DNA from: Actinomyces sp. AC-20-1
GTDB taxonomy: Bacteria > Actinomycetota > Actinomycetes > Actinomycetales > Actinomycetaceae
Direction: 5' to 3'
Length of the DNA stretch: 64,000 bases
Assembly: GCF_023369555.1 (NCBI RefSeq)
Contig: NZ_JACJVC010000008.1
Location: 1 to 64,000, forward strand
The notes beneath the pieces are model-generated. The model made no database searches. It was not told the DNA's origin and saw only the letters and a program-made list of their open reading frames with translations. This document shows positions 11,171 through 61,099 of the stretch, in pieces (position 1 is the stretch's first letter; every line of letters starts with the position of its first letter). A program made the translations under genes and the position numbers.

Positions 11171-11191
11171 GCGGGGCTCCTCGGGCGCGGG

Positions 11192-11311
11192 TGTCACGAT
11201 TCAGGCCATTGCTACCCTGGCACTGTCACGGCGGCGACGCAATCGGCGTGATGACGCGGATCAGCCCCATCCGGCTAGGACGGTGCCGGGCCAATGGCCT
11301 CAATCGTGACA
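11192..11311 (+). repeat. 120-bp interspersed element with 20-bp terminal inverted repeats, copy 1
   Basis: The left end TGTCACGATTCAGGCCATTG pairs with the right end CAATGGCCTCAATCGTGACA (one mismatch). The subterminal GGCAC/GTGCC also pairs. The right half carries GGTGCCGGG as in copies 3 and 4, which sets the orientation. It lies between the unknown gene 10541-11170 and tRNA-Lys. Other copies are at 20217, 55766 and 56868, all exactly 120 bp. Confidence 0.9.
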
Positions 11312-11342
11312 GCACGCGCTATGGTGGGGCCGCTGAGCCAGC

Positions 11343-20182: not shown

Positions 20183-20216
20183 GGGGCCAGCGTAGGAGGG
20201 GTGCCTGTGGGGAGCC

Positions 20217-20336
20217 TGTCACGATCCAGGCCATTGCCGCTCCGGCACCGGGGAGAGCTTCGGAGGAACGGTGTGATTCCGGTCTTTGCGGTCCGGCCAT
20301 GAGGACGCCCCCGGGCCAATGGCCTGGATCGTAACA
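20217..20336 (-). repeat. 120-bp interspersed element, copy 2 (inverted relative to the others)
   Basis: Ends TGTCACGATCCAGGCCATTG and CAATGGCCTGGATCGTAACA are inverted repeats with one mismatch. The GGTGCCGG-like internal motif reads on the minus strand, so this copy is inverted relative to copies 1, 3 and 4. It sits in the divergent mscS/padR promoter region. Confidence 0.9.
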
Positions 20337-20347
20337 CTTACACTAGA

Positions 20348-25729: not shown

Positions 25730-27745
25730 ATGCCCGTTGCACCGCAGGCCCCTCGGCCCTCCGCCGGCGCGGGAGGACGCCTCCTGCCCGTGCCCGACGC
25801 CCCACTGCCCCAGCCACCCACCCGCTCCGCCGGCGCCCTCCTGCGCTGGCTGCTCGTGCGCGCCTGGAAGCCCGTGCTCGTGGCGACCCTCGCGGCGACG
25901 ACGTCGAACGTCATCCAGGCCATCGTGCCCGGCTTCCTCGGCGCCGCCCTCGACTCCGGCATCGAGAACGGCCTCAACCCCCGCCTGTGGGCCATCGGCC
26001 TGGGCCTGCTCCTCCTGTTCTGCGTGTACGCCGTCGGCGACACGGGCCTGTCCTACTTCCGCGTCCACGCCTGGATGCGCGTGAGCTTCGACGTCGACCG
26101 GCTCGTGGCCCGGCAGGTCTCCACCACCGGCACGGACCTGGGCCGCCAGACCTCCACCGGCGAGGTCGCCGCCATCGTGGCCTCCGACGCCCAGTACCTG
26201 GGCAACGTCGTCGAGCGCCTGCCGGGCCTCATCGGCGCGGCCGTGTCCTTCCTCGTCGTCGCCGTCCTCATGCTCGGCACCTCCGTGCGCCTGGGCCTCA
26301 TCGCGCTCATCGGCATGCCGCTGGTCGCCTGGATCGTCACACTCGTCATCAAGCCCCTGCAGAGGCGCCAGGCCCACCAGCGCGAGGCCCAGTCCCAGGT
26401 GACCACCATCACGACGGACACGGTGGCGGGCCTGCGCATCCTGCGCGGCATCGGCGGCGAGGACGTCTTCGCCCGCCGCTACCGGGACGCCTCCCAGGAG
26501 CTGCGCCGCCGGGGCGTGTCCGTCGCCGGGACCCAGTCGGTGCTCATGAGCCTGCAGGTGCTGCTGCCCGGGCTGTTCGTCGCCGTCGTCGTGTGGGCGG
26601 CGGCCCGCATGGCCGTGGCCGGGCAGATCAGCGCCGGTGAGCTCGTCACCTTCTACGGGTACACCGCCTACCTGTCCTGGCCGCTCATGGAGTTCTCCAA
26701 CTCGGTGCAGGACCTCACGCGCGCCCGCGTCGGCGCCCGGCGCCTGCTGCGGCTGCTGACGGTCTCGCTCACCGCCGGCAGCGTCACCGAGCGCCTCGAC
26801 CTGGACCCGGCACAGGGCACCGCCGTCGCCGGGGCGCTCGTCGACCACGCCTCGGGGGTGCGGATCGAGCCGGGGCGCATGACCGCGCTCGTCGCCGCCG
26901 ACCCGGACCTGTCCGCCGCCCTGGCGACCCGCCTGGGGCGCTTCCACGACGACGGCCCCGTCGTCACCCTCACGAACCGTCCCCTGACCGACATGCCGCT
27001 GGCGGACGTGCGCGCCAGCGTCGTCGTCTCCGGGGCCACCGCCCAGCTCTTCACGGGCACGCTGCGCCAGGCCCTCGACGTGCGCGGCGGCCGGGCGCCG
27101 CAGCCGGTCGGGGTCGCCGCCCTGGTCGCGGCGGAGGACGAGCGGGCCGGCTCCGCCCTCGACCAGGACGTGCGGGCCCCCGTCCTGAGGGCCGACGGCG
27201 ACGACCGTCTTCTCGCGGCCCTCGAGGTCGCGGACGCCCACGACGTCCTGTCCTCGCTCGAGCACGGCCTGGCGGGGATGGTGACCGAGAAGGGCCGCTC
27301 CCTGTCGGGCGGGCAGCGCCAGCGCGTGGCGCTCGCCCGGGCCCTGCTCACCGAGGCCCCCGCCCTCGTGCTCATCGAGCCGACCAGCGCCCTGGACTCA
27401 CACACCGAGTCGCGCGTCGCCCGCCGTGTCCACGCCGCGCGGCGCGGACGCACCACCGTCATCGTCACAGAGTCCCCGCTGGTGCTGGAGGCCTGTGACG
27501 AGGTGGTCCTGCTCGACGACGAGGGCCGCGAGCGCGTGCGCTCCACGCACCGGGACCTGCTCGCCCGGGCCCGGCAGGGGCAGGCCGACGCCCTCGCCTA
27601 CCGGGCCGTCGTCGCCCGCGCCTCGGGAGAGGCGGAGCCCGGGGCCCCGACACCGGGAGGGACGGAGCCCACGGCCCCGCCGACCGGGCCGGACACCGTC
27701 GGACGGGTCCCAGCGCACCCAGGCACCACCGAGGAGGGACGCTGA
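25730..27745 (+). CDS. ABC exporter subunit with degenerate nucleotide-binding domain
   Basis: This 671-residue fused permease-ATPase has six membrane segments in residues 50-350. The signature loop SLSGGQRQR is intact (about 525-530), and the ATP domain ends with a long Pro/Thr-rich tail. However, the Walker A position (about 382-400) reads ALVAADPDLSAALATR with no GxxGxGKT. Walker B reads LVLIEPTSALD with the usual Asp replaced by Ile. The H-loop reads VTESPL with no His. So this subunit probably cannot hydrolyse ATP at its own site but can supply the signature to its partner. Its stop overlaps the next gene's ATG (TGATG), so the two subunits are made together. Substrate unknown. Confidence 0.88.
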   Translation: MPVAPQAPRPSAGAGGRLLPVPDAPLPQPPTRSAGALLRWLLVRAWKPVLVATLAATTSNVIQAIVPGFLGAALDSGIENGLNPRLWAIGLGLLLLFCVYAVGDTGLSYFRVHAWMRVSFDVDRLVARQVSTTGTDLGRQTSTGEVAAIVASDAQYLGNVVERLPGLIGAAVSFLVVAVLMLGTSVRLGLIALIGMPLVAWIVTLVIKPLQRRQAHQREAQSQVTTITTDTVAGLRILRGIGGEDVFARRYRDASQELRRRGVSVAGTQSVLMSLQVLLPGLFVAVVVWAAARMAVAGQISAGELVTFYGYTAYLSWPLMEFSNSVQDLTRARVGARRLLRLLTVSLTAGSVTERLDLDPAQGTAVAGALVDHASGVRIEPGRMTALVAADPDLSAALATRLGRFHDDGPVVTLTNRPLTDMPLADVRASVVVSGATAQLFTGTLRQALDVRGGRAPQPVGVAALVAAEDERAGSALDQDVRAPVLRADGDDRLLAALEVADAHDVLSSLEHGLAGMVTEKGRSLSGGQRQRVALARALLTEAPALVLIEPTSALDSHTESRVARRVHAARRGRTTVIVTESPLVLEACDEVVLLDDEGRERVRSTHRDLLARARQGQADALAYRAVVARASGEAEPGAPTPGGTEPTAPPTGPDTVGRVPAHPGTTEEGR

Positions 27746-29481
27746 TGGCGCTGCCGCTCGCCCCCGGCAAGGTCGCGATGCGCAAGACCCTCGGGATCAT
27801 GGCCTCCTACCGGGCGCGCTTCTGGTGGGTCCTCGCGCTGCAGGTGACGGCCGTGCTGGCGACCCTGGTCGCCCCTCAGCTGCTCGGCCGGCTCGTCACC
27901 CGGGTCTCGGCGGGCACCGCGACCATCGACTACGTGGACAAGGTCGTGCTCACGATCATCCTCGTGACCGTCGTCGGCGCGGTCATCAACCGGTACGCGC
28001 AGATGCACGCGCGCACGCTCGGCGAGTCCGTCTTCGCGGGCCTGCGCGAGCGGATGATGAACCGCGTCGTCCACCTGCCGCTGAGCGCCGTCGAGTCCGC
28101 CGGCACCGGGGACCTGGTGGGCCGCACCACCAACGACGTCTCCCGCATCGAGTTCCTCGTGCGCGTCGGGATCCCCCAGATCATGGTGTGCACCGTGACG
28201 ATCATCTTCACGATCGTCGCCGCCGCGCTGTCCGACCCGCTGCTGGCGCTGGGGCTGCTCGTCGTCGGGCCTCCCGTGTACCTCATGATGAGCTGGTACC
28301 TGCCGCTGTCGGTGCCCGCCTACCGGGCCTCCTCCTCCGCCTACGCGCGCCTGAACGGAGCCGTCTCCGAGACGGTCGAGCACGCGCAGACCGTTGACGC
28401 CCTGGGCATCGGCGCCCGCCGCGAGGAGGCGATCCTCACCCACGTGACCGAGGCGTGGAGCCTGGAGAGGTACACGGCGGGCCTCAGGGTGCGCCTGTTC
28501 CTCGTGCTCGACGTCGCCTGGCGCGCGCCCGTCGTCGTCATCCTCCTGTGGGGCGCCTTCCTCGCCGGCCACGGCCTGGCCTCCCTCGGGGCGATCACGA
28601 CGGTGGCCCTGTACGCGATGGAGCTGCGCAAGCCCATCGGCCAGCTCATGTTCTGGATCGACCAGGTGCAGGTGGGCCAGGCCTCCCTGTCGCGCATCCT
28701 CGGCGTGGAGGAGGTCCCGGCGGACCGCACCCCCACCGGGGCGGTCCCGCAGGGCACGCGCATCGTGCTGCGCGACGTGCGCTTCTCCTACCGCGAGGGC
28801 GTCGAGGTGCTGCACGGTGTGAGCCTGGAGCTGCGTCCCGGGGAGCGGCTGGCCGTCGTCGGGCCCTCCGGCTCGGGCAAGTCCACACTGGGGCGGATGC
28901 TCGCGGGCATCCACCCACCGACCTCCGGGTCGGTGACGGTGGGCGGGGTGGCGCTGACGGACCTGCCGGAGGAGGAGCTGCGCCGGCACGTCGCGCTCGT
29001 GACCCAGGAGCACCACGTCTTCGTCGGCACCGTCGCGGACAACGTCCGCCTGGGCCGCCCGGACGCCGACGACGCCACGATCCGCCGGGCGCTCGAGGCC
29101 ATCGGCGCCTCCTCCTGGGTGGACGCGCTCGAGGATGGCATGTCCACGATGGTCGGCTCCGGCCACCTGGAGCTCACCCCGGCGCAGGCGCAGGAGGTGG
29201 CGCTGGCCCGTCTGGTCCTGCTGGACCCGCACACGCTCATCCTCGACGAGGCCACGAGCCTGCTGGACCCGCACGCGGCCCGCACGCTCGAGCGGACCCT
29301 GTCGACGGCGCTGGCCGGGCGCACGGTCATCGAGGTGGCGCACCGGCTGTACACGGCGCAGGACGCGGACCGGGTGGCGGTCGTCATGGACGGGCGGGTG
29401 GTCGAGCTCGGCACGCACGACGAGCTCGTGGCGCTGGGCGGCGAGTACGCGAGCCTGTGGGAGGCCTGGAGCCAGGAGTAG
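27745..29481 (+). CDS. ABC exporter subunit with intact Walker motifs and degenerate signature
   Basis: This 578-residue partner of the previous gene has six membrane segments, Walker A VGPSGSGKST (about 372-381), Walker B LILDEATSLLD and H-loop VAHRL. Its signature motif is altered to LTPAQAQE in place of LSGGQ. Combined with the partner's defects, exactly one complete ATP site can form: Walker A/B from this chain and signature from the other. The membrane domain shows AVESAGTGDLVGRTTNDVSR, typical of type IV exporters. It is followed by 315 bp of repeats and no gene. Confidence 0.92.
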   Translation: MALPLAPGKVAMRKTLGIMASYRARFWWVLALQVTAVLATLVAPQLLGRLVTRVSAGTATIDYVDKVVLTIILVTVVGAVINRYAQMHARTLGESVFAGLRERMMNRVVHLPLSAVESAGTGDLVGRTTNDVSRIEFLVRVGIPQIMVCTVTIIFTIVAAALSDPLLALGLLVVGPPVYLMMSWYLPLSVPAYRASSSAYARLNGAVSETVEHAQTVDALGIGARREEAILTHVTEAWSLERYTAGLRVRLFLVLDVAWRAPVVVILLWGAFLAGHGLASLGAITTVALYAMELRKPIGQLMFWIDQVQVGQASLSRILGVEEVPADRTPTGAVPQGTRIVLRDVRFSYREGVEVLHGVSLELRPGERLAVVGPSGSGKSTLGRMLAGIHPPTSGSVTVGGVALTDLPEEELRRHVALVTQEHHVFVGTVADNVRLGRPDADDATIRRALEAIGASSWVDALEDGMSTMVGSGHLELTPAQAQEVALARLVLLDPHTLILDEATSLLDPHAARTLERTLSTALAGRTVIEVAHRLYTAQDADRVAVVMDGRVVELGTHDELVALGGEYASLWEAWSQE

Positions 29482-29796
29482 GGGCCGGGCGCGGCGGCGG
29501 CCTGGGACACACAGGACGCACGGGGCACACAGGGCACCTGGGACACACAGGACGCACGGGGCAGCGCGCCAGGACAACGTGCGTGCGCAAGGACAACCTC
29601 CTCGCGCAAGGACAACTAAAACGCTCAAGGACAACCTGTGCGACGCCACCAGGTTGTCCATCCAGCAGCACGTTGTCCTTGGCGCGTCACGTTGTCCTTG
29701 GCGGGCGCCCAGGTGTGAGAACCTGGCACAGGAAAAGACGCGCGGGTACCGTTGCGCGCAGCGTCCGCCACCCCCTCACCGAAGGCTCCGTCCCAC
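29482..29796. other. Repeat-filled 315-bp intergenic region
   Basis: No gene is seen. It holds a 27-bp direct repeat (29501-29527 and 29537-29563, 36-bp period, starting CCTGGGACACACAGG), then the GGACAAC array at 29572-29697. After the array, about 100 bp lead to the holin-like gene and probably hold its promoter. Confidence 0.8.
29572..29697. repeat. Palindromic array of GGACAAC on a 19-bp period (4 direct + 3 inverted), copy 1
   Basis: GGACAAC starts at 29572, 29591, 29610 and 29629, exactly 19 bp apart. Its complement GTTGTCC starts at 29653, 29672 and 29691, again 19 bp apart. The two halves are separated by a 17-nt centre (29636-29652). Most units are preceded by CAA. The inner units can pair as GGACAACCTG with CAGGTTGTCC. 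An array with the same spacing is at 61031-61099. Confidence 0.9.
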
Positions 29797-30237
29797 ATGA
29801 CCCAGTACCAGCCGCCCTCGGGCGCTCCCGGCTCCCAGCCCTCGCTTGGCGAGCTCGTCGCCCGGATCTCGGAGAACGTCACCGGTCTCGTCAAGGGCGA
29901 GATCGAGCTCGCCAAGGCCAAGGGCAAGCGCATGGCCATCGCGCTCGGCCTGGGCGCAGGCCTGCTCGCCGCTGCCGCCGTGCTCGCCCTGTACGCCCTC
30001 GGGATGCTCCTGAGCGCGCTCGCCTGGGCCATCGCCGAGGCGCTGTCCCCCTGGGCCGGCCACCTCATCGTCGCCGTGCTCCTGCTCGTGGTCGTGGCCG
30101 TGCTCGCCCTCCTGGGCGTCAACCGCCTCAAGGCCGCCCAGGCGGACGTCCCCGCACCGCAGGAGGGGATCAAGGCCGACGTCGCCCTCGCCAAGGCCGC
30201 CCTGCAGGAGGGCCTGGAGAAGGGCAGCCTCAAGTGA
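29797..30237 (+). CDS. Actinobacterial holin-like (phage holin family) membrane protein
   Basis: This 146-residue protein has the layout of the Act_holin/DUF1469 family. A short hydrophilic N-terminus with SLGELVARISENVTGLVKGE and IELAKAKGKRM is followed by two long membrane helices (GAGLLAAAAVLALYALGMLL and HLIVAVLLLVVVAVLALLGV), then a helical tail. Despite the name, chromosomal members are not known to lyse cells. ATG at 29797. Its stop overlaps the next gene's GTG by four bases, so three genes form an operon. Confidence 0.85.
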   Translation: MTQYQPPSGAPGSQPSLGELVARISENVTGLVKGEIELAKAKGKRMAIALGLGAGLLAAAAVLALYALGMLLSALAWAIAEALSPWAGHLIVAVLLLVVVAVLALLGVNRLKAAQADVPAPQEGIKADVALAKAALQEGLEKGSLK

Positions 30238-55744: not shown

Positions 55745-55765
55745 GGTGGCAGCGTAGCGGGCCGG

Positions 55766-55885
55766 TGTCACGATCCAGGCCATTGGGGCCGGGGCACCCG
55801 CCAGAGGCCGGGCCCAATCGCAGCATCCTGCGGCTGCGGCTGGCAGCGCCCCGGTGCCGGGCGGGCAATGGCCTGGATCGTGACA
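55766..55885 (+). repeat. 120-bp interspersed element, copy 3
   Basis: Ends TGTCACGATCCAGGCCATTG and CAATGGCCTGGATCGTGACA are perfect 20-bp inverted repeats. The subterminal GGCAC/GTGCC also pairs. Internal sequence (CCAGAGG, GGGC, TCCTGCGGCT) is shared with copy 4 in the same orientation. It lies in the purD/DUF559 divergent gap. Confidence 0.92.
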
Positions 55886-56001
55886 GCCCGGGCCGTCCTC
55901 GGGCTCCACAGGCCCGGCCCGCAGGCCGCTCACGGGCGCGCGTCCACAGCAGCAGCCCCGCACCGTTGCCGCCCGGACGCGCCTGCGCTGCGATCACCCG
56001 T

Positions 56002-56889
56002 ATGAGACACGACCTCATTGACCGCGTCCGCCTCGCCGGCGGCGCCTCGCGCGTGCGGGACCTGCGCCTCAGCCGCACCGAGAGACGTCGGCTGGACCTC
56101 CTCATCGCGCAGCACGAGCTGCTCCCGCACCCCCACGGCACGGTGAGCCTGCCCGGCACGCACCCGGCGGTCACCCTCGCCCGGGTCCACGGGGGCTTCC
56201 TCTCCTGCACGGTCGCCGCACGCGCGCACGGGCTCGAGGTGCCCTCCTGGTGCCGGGGCGCCGACCACGTCATCGTCCCTCATGGACGCGGTTTCCCACC
56301 CGTGGCGGGCGAGCACGTGCACGTCTCGAGGCGGGTGCCGCGCCCGCCGAACGACCGCCCTCCGCTCCTGCCCCTCGAGGAGACGCTCGCCCACCTGCTC
56401 ATGTGCACCCGCGTCTCCACCCTCGAGGCGCTGTGCCCGGTGGACCAGGCCCTGCACGAGAGGCGGGTGAGCGTCGAGCAGCTCCGGGCGGCGCTCGGGC
56501 GGGGACGCGGCAGCGCCCTGGGGCGCCGGCGGCTGGCACTGGCGAGCGGGCGCTGCCGCTCACCGCTGGAGACCTCGGTGCGGCTCGACCTCATTGGTGC
56601 GGGGCTCAGGCACCGCGACGGCGTTCCGGTCCGCGGGGTCGGGGAGGTCGACTTCATCGTGGAGGGGGTCATCGTCCTGGAGACGGACGGCGCGTCCTAC
56701 CACTCGGAGCCGGAGCAGTTCGCCCGGGACCGGTGGCGCGACCGCCAGCTGACGAGGCTCGGCTACCGTCCGATGCGCTTCACGCGCCAGGAGGTCATCT
56801 CCCACCGGGTGGTGGAGGACGTGCGGGCGGTGCTGCGGCGCATCGCGCAGGAGCGTCACCACCCAGGTGTCACGATCCAGGCCATTTGA
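56002..56889 (+). CDS. DUF559-domain protein (restriction-endonuclease-like fold)
   Basis: This 295-residue protein has a helical N-terminal half with a winged-helix-like start (LIDRVRLAGGASRVRDLRLS). A C-terminal DUF559/Vsr-like nuclease fold follows: GVGEVDFIVEGVIVLETDG (catalytic Asp and Glu) and RDRWRDRQLTRLGYRPMRFT. This layout is common in actinobacteria, often read as a type IV toxin-like or nuclease protein. Its role is unproven. The gene lies between two same-orientation 120-bp elements; copy 4 supplies its last seven codons including the stop (VTIQAI). It has no operon partner. Confidence 0.85.
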   Translation: MRHDLIDRVRLAGGASRVRDLRLSRTERRRLDLLIAQHELLPHPHGTVSLPGTHPAVTLARVHGGFLSCTVAARAHGLEVPSWCRGADHVIVPHGRGFPPVAGEHVHVSRRVPRPPNDRPPLLPLEETLAHLLMCTRVSTLEALCPVDQALHERRVSVEQLRAALGRGRGSALGRRRLALASGRCRSPLETSVRLDLIGAGLRHRDGVPVRGVGEVDFIVEGVIVLETDGASYHSEPEQFARDRWRDRQLTRLGYRPMRFTRQEVISHRVVEDVRAVLRRIAQERHHPGVTIQAI

Positions 56890-56987
56890 GCAGGGGAACC
56901 CACCAGAGGGCGGGCACAACCGCGCAGTCCTGCGGCTTCGGCCCACAGCACCCCGGTGCCGGCCGGGCAATGGCCTGGATCGTGACA
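56868..56987 (+). repeat. 120-bp interspersed element, copy 4, overlapping the DUF559 gene end
   Basis: Left end TGTCACGATCCAGGCCATTT and right end CAATGGCCTGGATCGTGACA are inverted repeats with one mismatch. It begins 22 bp before the DUF559 stop codon. Internal similarity to copy 3 is clear and the orientation is the same. Confidence 0.92.
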
Positions 56988-57002
56988 GCCCCCGGCGCAC
57001 GC

Positions 57003-61030: not shown

Positions 61031-61099
61031 GGACAACGCATGAGAGCCTGGACAACCCGGTGGCATCAACCAGGTTGTCCAGGCTCCGTCACGTTGTCC
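61031..61099. repeat. Palindromic array of GGACAAC on a 19-bp period (2 direct + 2 inverted), copy 2
   Basis: GGACAAC starts at 61031 and 61050 (19 bp apart). GTTGTCC starts at 61074 and 61093 (19 bp apart). The centre is 17 nt (61057-61073), the same as in the larger array at 29572. CGTCACGTTGTCC followed by TGGCG is common to both. It lies between the converging LppM-like and purA genes. Confidence 0.88.

Follow-up and report, generated by a model that had tools for sequence, protein, structure and literature searches.

The GGACAAC arrays in the window, the stretch of 64,000 nucleotides from Actinomyces sp. AC-20-1 that we analysed, are best explained, with a probability of roughly 0.6, as solo copies, scattered through the genome, of a palindromic repeat (P). 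In this reading P has a partner gene, which encodes an AbiEi-like/Vsr-type nuclease, in an organisation like that of REPIN-RAYT systems but with an unrelated protein. The arrays share one geometry, are intergenic and are dispersed; the gene is bracketed by P in its own genome and in most of the relatives examined across the class; the sequence of the unit varies by lineage while the period of 18–20 bp persists; and orthologous sites have P-gene-P in some genomes and solo P in others. By sequence, arrays 1 and 2 of the window are probably solo P of the subfamily to which the own family gene in Table 1 belongs. The gene link, the dispersal and the species-specific units go beyond the earlier note on this DNA, which had described the two arrays. 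Throughout, G000 is the own genome, G001 and upwards are other genomes, and L numbers denote fetched stretches or loci.

Table 1 Features of the window and the family gene of the own genome.
Feature	Position	Strand	Description
ABC-transporter gene	27745..29481	+	upstream neighbour of array 1
Array 1	29572..29697	.	putative solo repeat; 4 direct + 3 inverted GGACAAC; period 19; centre step 24
Small membrane gene (presumably holin-like)	29797..30237	+	downstream neighbour of array 1
Array 2	61031..61099	.	putative solo repeat; 2 + 2 units; geometry as array 1
Own family gene	G000:C45:105083-105910 (L076 4384-5214)		276 aa from aligned start
Second family gene	56002..56889	+	295-aa protein; DUF559/MTES_1575 (Vsr-type) nuclease domain
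P2 left copy	55764..55889	.	126 nt; 58-nt arms 71% complementary, 4 nt apart
P2 right copy	56866..56991	.	86% identical to left; overlaps gene 3' end
P2 solo copy	11189..11313	.	conserved outer arms, variable interior
P2 solo copy	20216..20337	.	conserved outer arms, variable interior

Geometry and surroundings of the arrays

Re-reading the positions bore out the two arrays as first described: heptamers start at 29572, 29591, 29610 and 29629 (+) and at 29653, 29672 and 29691 (-) in array 1, and at 61031 and 61050 (+) and 61074 and 61093 (-) in array 2. The pattern GGACAAC-N12-GGACAAC matches 7 times in the window versus 0 times in 100 dinucleotide shuffles, and 48+52 = 100 times in the own genome versus 1+1 = 2 times for the reversed pattern. 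The proposal of a selected rather than a chance geometry stands. Exact centres of the form GGACAAC-N17-GTTGTCC number 23 in the own genome (each listed on both strands), and the reversed pattern has none. Defining an array as a group of at least two exact GGACAAC heptamers, we found 30 in the own genome, 2 of them in the window and 28 in stretches fetched around pattern matches. Their 110 same-strand steps measure 19 bp (100), 20 bp (6), 38 bp (3) or 57 bp (1), and the exact 19-bp spacing claimed at the outset is therefore strict in the window but only nearly strict across the whole genome. Steps at a change of strand are 24 bp (23) or 43 bp (6) and every change runs from + to -. Both arms are present in 29/30 arrays, array lengths range from 69 to 166 bp with 19-bp units, and in several arrays degenerate outer units, e.g. 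GGACCAC, extend the period. By simple arithmetic, with 10.5 bp to each helical turn, 19 bp makes 1.8 turns, which places adjacent units ~68 degrees apart rather than on one face of the DNA as had been supposed. Judged from the sequence alone, DnaA boxes and CRISPR are improbable identities for the arrays, since the bases 3' of GTTGTCC vary.

None of the 30 arrays lies within a called gene, by our own gene calling, under which 84% of these stretches is coding; array 2 sits in the space where two convergent genes meet. Among intergenic spaces of at least 80 bp in the own array stretches, arrays occupy 14/72 co-directional, 10/23 convergent and 4/31 divergent ones, and thus do not favour promoters. 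The arrays lie closer to stops (median distance of 92 bp, n = 25) than to starts (median distance of 176 bp, n = 18). Single strands of the arrays fold strongly (z of -7.1 to -9.6) because of the heptamers themselves; mirror-paired spacers agree at 5.30/12 positions, as against 5.37 for non-mirror pairs of the same arrays and 5.37 for random pairs. A nested RNA hairpin maintained by pairing, one of the roles suggested earlier, was therefore rejected.

Among the comparisons listed, homology between own arrays mostly does not extend past the array edges. Two pairs of own arrays ~1 kb apart (L059 3987-5134 and L074 4003-5033) have 215 and 253 bp in common at 87% and 91% identity, and these are local duplications taking in the arrays. 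Directly before array 1, at ~29504-29563 of the window, a string like GGGACACACAGGACGCACGGGGCA stands twice in tandem.

Distribution in relatives and the site of array 1

A search of the genome and of relatives for the pattern, as the earlier note had proposed, yielded the 30 own arrays and relatives with similar geometry. In a genome-contig collection, in which near relatives of the window may be absent, the exact three-heptamer pattern occurs only in Actinomyces bovis (12 stretches). Viral contigs hold no match to it and no relative of the family protein either, and a phage origin was rejected on these grounds. Across 39 genomes (the own one, 24 of the genus and 14 of the order), the heptamer pair occurs in three, with 100 matches in the own genome, 9 in G021 and 1 in G018. 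The GGACAAC pair is absent (0 matches) from G014, G012 and G005; in these, TTGGACCGC-N10-TTGGACCGC matches 99, 71 and 33 times, and a family gene is flanked by a TTGGACCGC array in each. The TTGGACCGC pattern has 0 matches in the five other genomes searched for it (G000, G001, G008, G009 and G021). Relatives thus mostly retain the spacing and alter the heptamer, rather than carrying heptamers without the spacing as a coincidental geometry would have implied.

Immediately 3' of the orthologue of the ABC-transporter gene, five genomes (G005, G008, G012, G014 and G021) have a repeat-gene-repeat unit with an AbiEi/DUF559-like gene. In G008, G014 and G005 the arrays 3' of this orthologue keep the architecture of array 1 but use other units or a period of 20 bp, and the stretch read in G001, G003, G006, G007, G010 and G011 has no such array. 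In G021 a GGACAAC array also stands ahead of the holin-like gene, where array 1 lies in the window. Array 1 may consequently be the orthologue of that array and not what is left of a repeat-gene-repeat unit after loss of the gene.

The family gene and its product

The own family gene is bracketed by GGACAAC arrays at L076 4009-4115 and 5273-5379. It is the one close copy in its genome by single-sequence search (3 matches with a profile), while G008 has seven single-sequence matches, three close ones bearing different repeats. A profile search of the class gave family matches at E <= 1e-15 in 168/246 genomes.

The family protein appears to combine an AbiEi-like part with a C-terminal nuclease signature of Vsr/PD-(D/E)XK type. 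Residues 36-144 of the own protein match PADLOC AbiEi models (5.5e-6), Pfam gives it no significant match, and the L191 protein matches both PADLOC AbiEi (6.2e-14) and Pfam AbiEi_4 (1.9e-8). In an alignment of 15 homologues E163, E167, D200, E211, D213 and K217, among others, are invariant, and E167, D200, E211, D213 and K217 are a candidate PD-(D/E)XK/Vsr-like active-site pattern. The A. bovis homologue matches Pfam MTES_1575 at 3.7e-6, under the model cut-off. Pfam scans of 21 protein entries found no transposase family, including Y1 transposases; NCBIfam gave no match for 14/16 protein entries (E up to 0.1-1) or for L227, and no solved structure was matched in a profile search at E <= 10. 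The own gene has a 73-aa call upstream of it, and its downstream neighbour encodes an FtsX/MacB_PCD-type permease, not AbiEii.

Twin repeats around family genes

Palindromic arrays with locus-specific units lie on both sides of the gene in G000, G004 (2 loci), G005, G008 (2 loci), G009, G012 and G014, and such arrays also stand on both sides in A. bovis, G021, G018 and two loci of G028, a genome from another family of the order. We aligned the 600 bases on the left of each gene locally with the 600 on its right and took the best score; with a cut-off of at least 40, we found twin flanks at 48/61 family loci (27/34 in the first set and 21/27 in the second), compared with 2/108 control genes of 200-450 aa taken from the array stretches. 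The first set had 36 loci, of which 34 were matched and used, and the second, from the class search, had 29, of which 28 were used. L179 duplicates L128 and was dropped from these 62, which leaves the 61 distinct loci; they are best hits rather than a random sample and are non-independent as orthologues are included. Among the 13/61 loci below 40, L118 and L128 have arrays on both sides by eye. The two control outliers are the DUF559 gene of the window (56002-56889) and a TIM-barrel gene outside the family (L074 729-1754), whose flanks are strongly alike (score 243). For the second set, 0/28 loci fell in the top 1% of off-diagonal scores (95th percentile 34), owing to ~14/756 off-diagonal pairs from near-identical loci, and the comparison with control genes was used in place of this ranking.

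At the 48 twin loci the median distance from the end of the left repeat to the chosen start is 187 bp, and that from the stop codon to the right repeat is 16 bp. The best alignment between the two repeats is direct in 25 and inverted in 23, and palindrome z exceeds 3 in 34/46 twin-repeat loci. Direct repeats of at least 6 bases peak at lags of 19 (17 loci) and 20 (15 loci), with 0-6 at each other lag from 8 to 40. Such repeats at a lag of 18–20 bp are found in 33/48 twin repeats versus 2.7 after shuffling (Actinomyces 15/21, others 18/27), so the period first noticed in the window marks the whole class of repeats. Among 16 hand-chosen loci, the more alike the proteins are, the more alike P tends to be (Mantel r 0.56, p 0.0002; Spearman 0.31), which is what co-evolution would predict. 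L121/L140 is an exception: the proteins are 74% identical and the P score is at background.

Other flanks also carry repeats. At L145 in A. bovis, a more distant DUF559-like gene has CAAAGTACTGCAAACCG on both sides. In G021, the 3' flank of another family gene (L149) has CTCGTTC/GAACGAG units with a 20-bp period, and similar units form a dispersed array elsewhere in that genome (L087 7821-7945).

Dispersal and alternation of solo and full sites

Hand counts of dispersed P of the L140 type give at least ~18 sites in G011, 18 in G006, 14 in G003 and 9 in G001, all carriers of the gene, and at least 2 each in G007 and G010, whose gene copy lies elsewhere. For P of the L137 type there are at least ~16 sites each in G007 and G010, where the gene is present, at least ~15-16 in G003 and G006, where it is absent at the L137 locus, and at least 5 in G011 and 3 in G001. 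The L137 site is P-gene-P in G007, G010 and G011, a single P in G003 and G006, and a single diverged P in G001; the L140 site holds the gene in G011, G001, G003 and G006, and solo P with no gene in G007 and G010. The gene copies of G007/G010 and those of G003/G001/G006/G011 have 81-86% DNA identity, yet their surroundings are unrelated.

In the 20-kb stretches comparable between G007 and G010, 12/12 P sites are common to both, hence no recent movement of P is seen between these two genomes; the L212, L215 and L224 sites are outside this comparison, having no partner stretch. An allele without any P was found neither at these comparable sites nor at the L137 site in G001. Insertions or replacements of ~2.2, 1.0 and 6.9 kb with ordinary genes distinguish G007 from G010 (L209/L219, L214/L225 and L216/L226), and they start at the edge of P or within ~25 bases of it. 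P sites may be recombination hotspots.

Several observations weigh against our preferred reading, among them the P sites common to G007 and G010, the 13 loci that scored below 40 and the L121/L140 pair. A. bovis has GGACAAC arrays, but the best family gene there has a different P, and in G021 a close family gene is flanked by GGACCAC/GGACCGC-type arrays despite the 9 GGACAAC matches of that genome; such orphan arrays would be populations that have outlived their gene. Likewise, P of the L137 type is abundant where the gene is missing at that site.

A second repeat-gene unit in the window

The window also holds a family gene between two copies of another repeat, P2, the sequence of which is unrelated to the GGACAAC arrays and which has two solo copies as well (Table 1). 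Its protein matches Pfam DUF559 (E 3.8e-6, 27.2 bits, cut-off 20.6) and, below the cut-off of 38.2, MTES_1575 (6.6e-9, 36.2); NCBIfam adds a weak Hhe match (E 0.017), and a single-sequence structure model had a pLDDT of 37.6 and was unusable. The A. oris plasmid NZ_CP116225.1 encodes a homologue, annotated as a 'hypothetical protein', whose gene also lies between twin repeats; these are 71 bp long, one 165 bp ahead of the start and the other 3 bp past the stop.

Proposed mechanism and alternatives

If the arrays are solo copies of P, the family protein would bind the units, spaced 19 bp apart, as an oligomer with its point of symmetry at the array centre, and would drive their spread, a role that we infer from sequence. 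Each unit would be recognised in double-stranded DNA, as the spacers of opposite arms lack covariation. The nuclease would nick or cut at P, repair would copy P into new intergenic places and, rarely, the gene as well, and recombination between the flanking copies would delete the gene to leave a solo P. Of the roles named in the earlier note, a multimeric DNA-binding protein and the end of a mobile element both fit a repeat found on either side of a nuclease-like gene and, in solo form, dispersed elsewhere, although binding is something we infer. A wider claim, to which we would give slightly less than an even chance, is that across the Actinomycetes AbiEi-like/Vsr-type nucleases each drive and maintain their own population of arrays with an 18–20 bp period and a co-evolving unit, a second, independent REPIN-RAYT-like invention with a private protein-repeat code in each lineage.

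An ordinary insertion sequence, in which P-gene-P transposes whole with P as its terminal repeats and solo P as MITE-like derivatives, would account for the bracketed gene, the solo copies and the gene copies of 81-86% identity in different surroundings. We consider it unlikely, as there is usually one close gene copy per genome, each P is a whole palindrome of iterated units in either direct or inverted relation, and the Pfam scans revealed no transposase family. The presence of P-gene-P in some genomes and of solo P in others at one site could also reflect homing, with solo P as the target, P duplicated as the gene inserts, and the nuclease as a homing endonuclease; both flanking P remain whole under that scheme, and so would still be targets, and deletion between repeats explains the alternation equally well. 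We consider homing very unlikely.

AbiEi proteins are DNA-binding antitoxins, and together with the matches to PADLOC AbiEi models and a left P ahead of the start this would suit an AbiEi-like autoregulator that binds P as an operator at its own gene and, via dispersed P, controls a regulon. The right P comes after the stop codon, the arrays are found mainly in co-directional and convergent spaces, and the nuclease-like signature is invariant in all 15 aligned rows; on this evidence we judge operator sites to be quite unlikely. RNA hairpins or terminators at 3' ends would match the strong folds and the closeness of arrays to stops, but mirror spacers without covariation, the 4 divergent spaces bearing arrays and a gene link left unexplained render them the least credible proposal, with little chance of being right.

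Significance and comparison with known systems

The solo-P reading describes what looks like a gene-and-repeat partnership of an undescribed kind. It would supply a functional context for a large, mostly unnamed protein family and, next to REPIN-RAYT, a second partnership of repeat and protein whose chemistry is unrelated; natural protein/unit pairs make DNA recognition and repeat spread directly testable, and the AbiEi annotation may conceal repeat-associated nucleases. In the open-access literature searched, no paper has GGACAAC or GTTGTCC as a word, AbiEi together with DUF559, or Actinomyces with an intergenic palindromic repeat element, and DUF559 with 'palindromic' returned only papers judged by title to be unrelated. 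We found no link of the MTES_1575/DUF559 domain to flanking or dispersed repeats described in that literature, including the available portion of PMC3710099.

Several known systems resemble parts of this arrangement. The MTES_1575/DUF559 Vsr-type REase domain is matched in Pfam by the window protein and the A. bovis homologue. The AbiE type IV toxin-antitoxin system has the AbiEi-like region in common with the family, according to the PADLOC and Pfam profiles; the family protein differs in its added nuclease domain, in the repeats bracketing its gene and, at the own locus, in a downstream permease gene instead of AbiEii. Insertion sequences and MITEs likewise place a gene between repeats and leave solo repeats, whereas here there is no known transposase and the ends are palindromic, iterated and in either relative orientation.

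The closest likeness is to REP/REPIN-RAYT systems, which excerpts of PMC3116915, PMC3733652 and PMC8049555 describe as palindromic, extragenic, dispersed repeats with a dedicated gene beside the same repeat, a lineage-specific sequence and persistence over divergence; REP sequences are palindromes of 20-40 bp, many with a GTAG or CGTC tag (PMC3733652, in part). Measured against those excerpts, P is similarly extragenic, palindromic and dispersed, also flanks its gene, has a lineage-specific sequence and likewise persists across diverged lineages. In contrast, the family protein is AbiEi-like/Vsr-type without a Pfam match to a Y1 (HUH) tyrosine transposase, and P consists of arrays at 18–20 bp, 69–166 bp long in the own genome, with unpaired spacers. 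Judged on the open-access literature, the organisation is similar to a known one, and what is new here is the unrelated protein and the geometry of the repeat.
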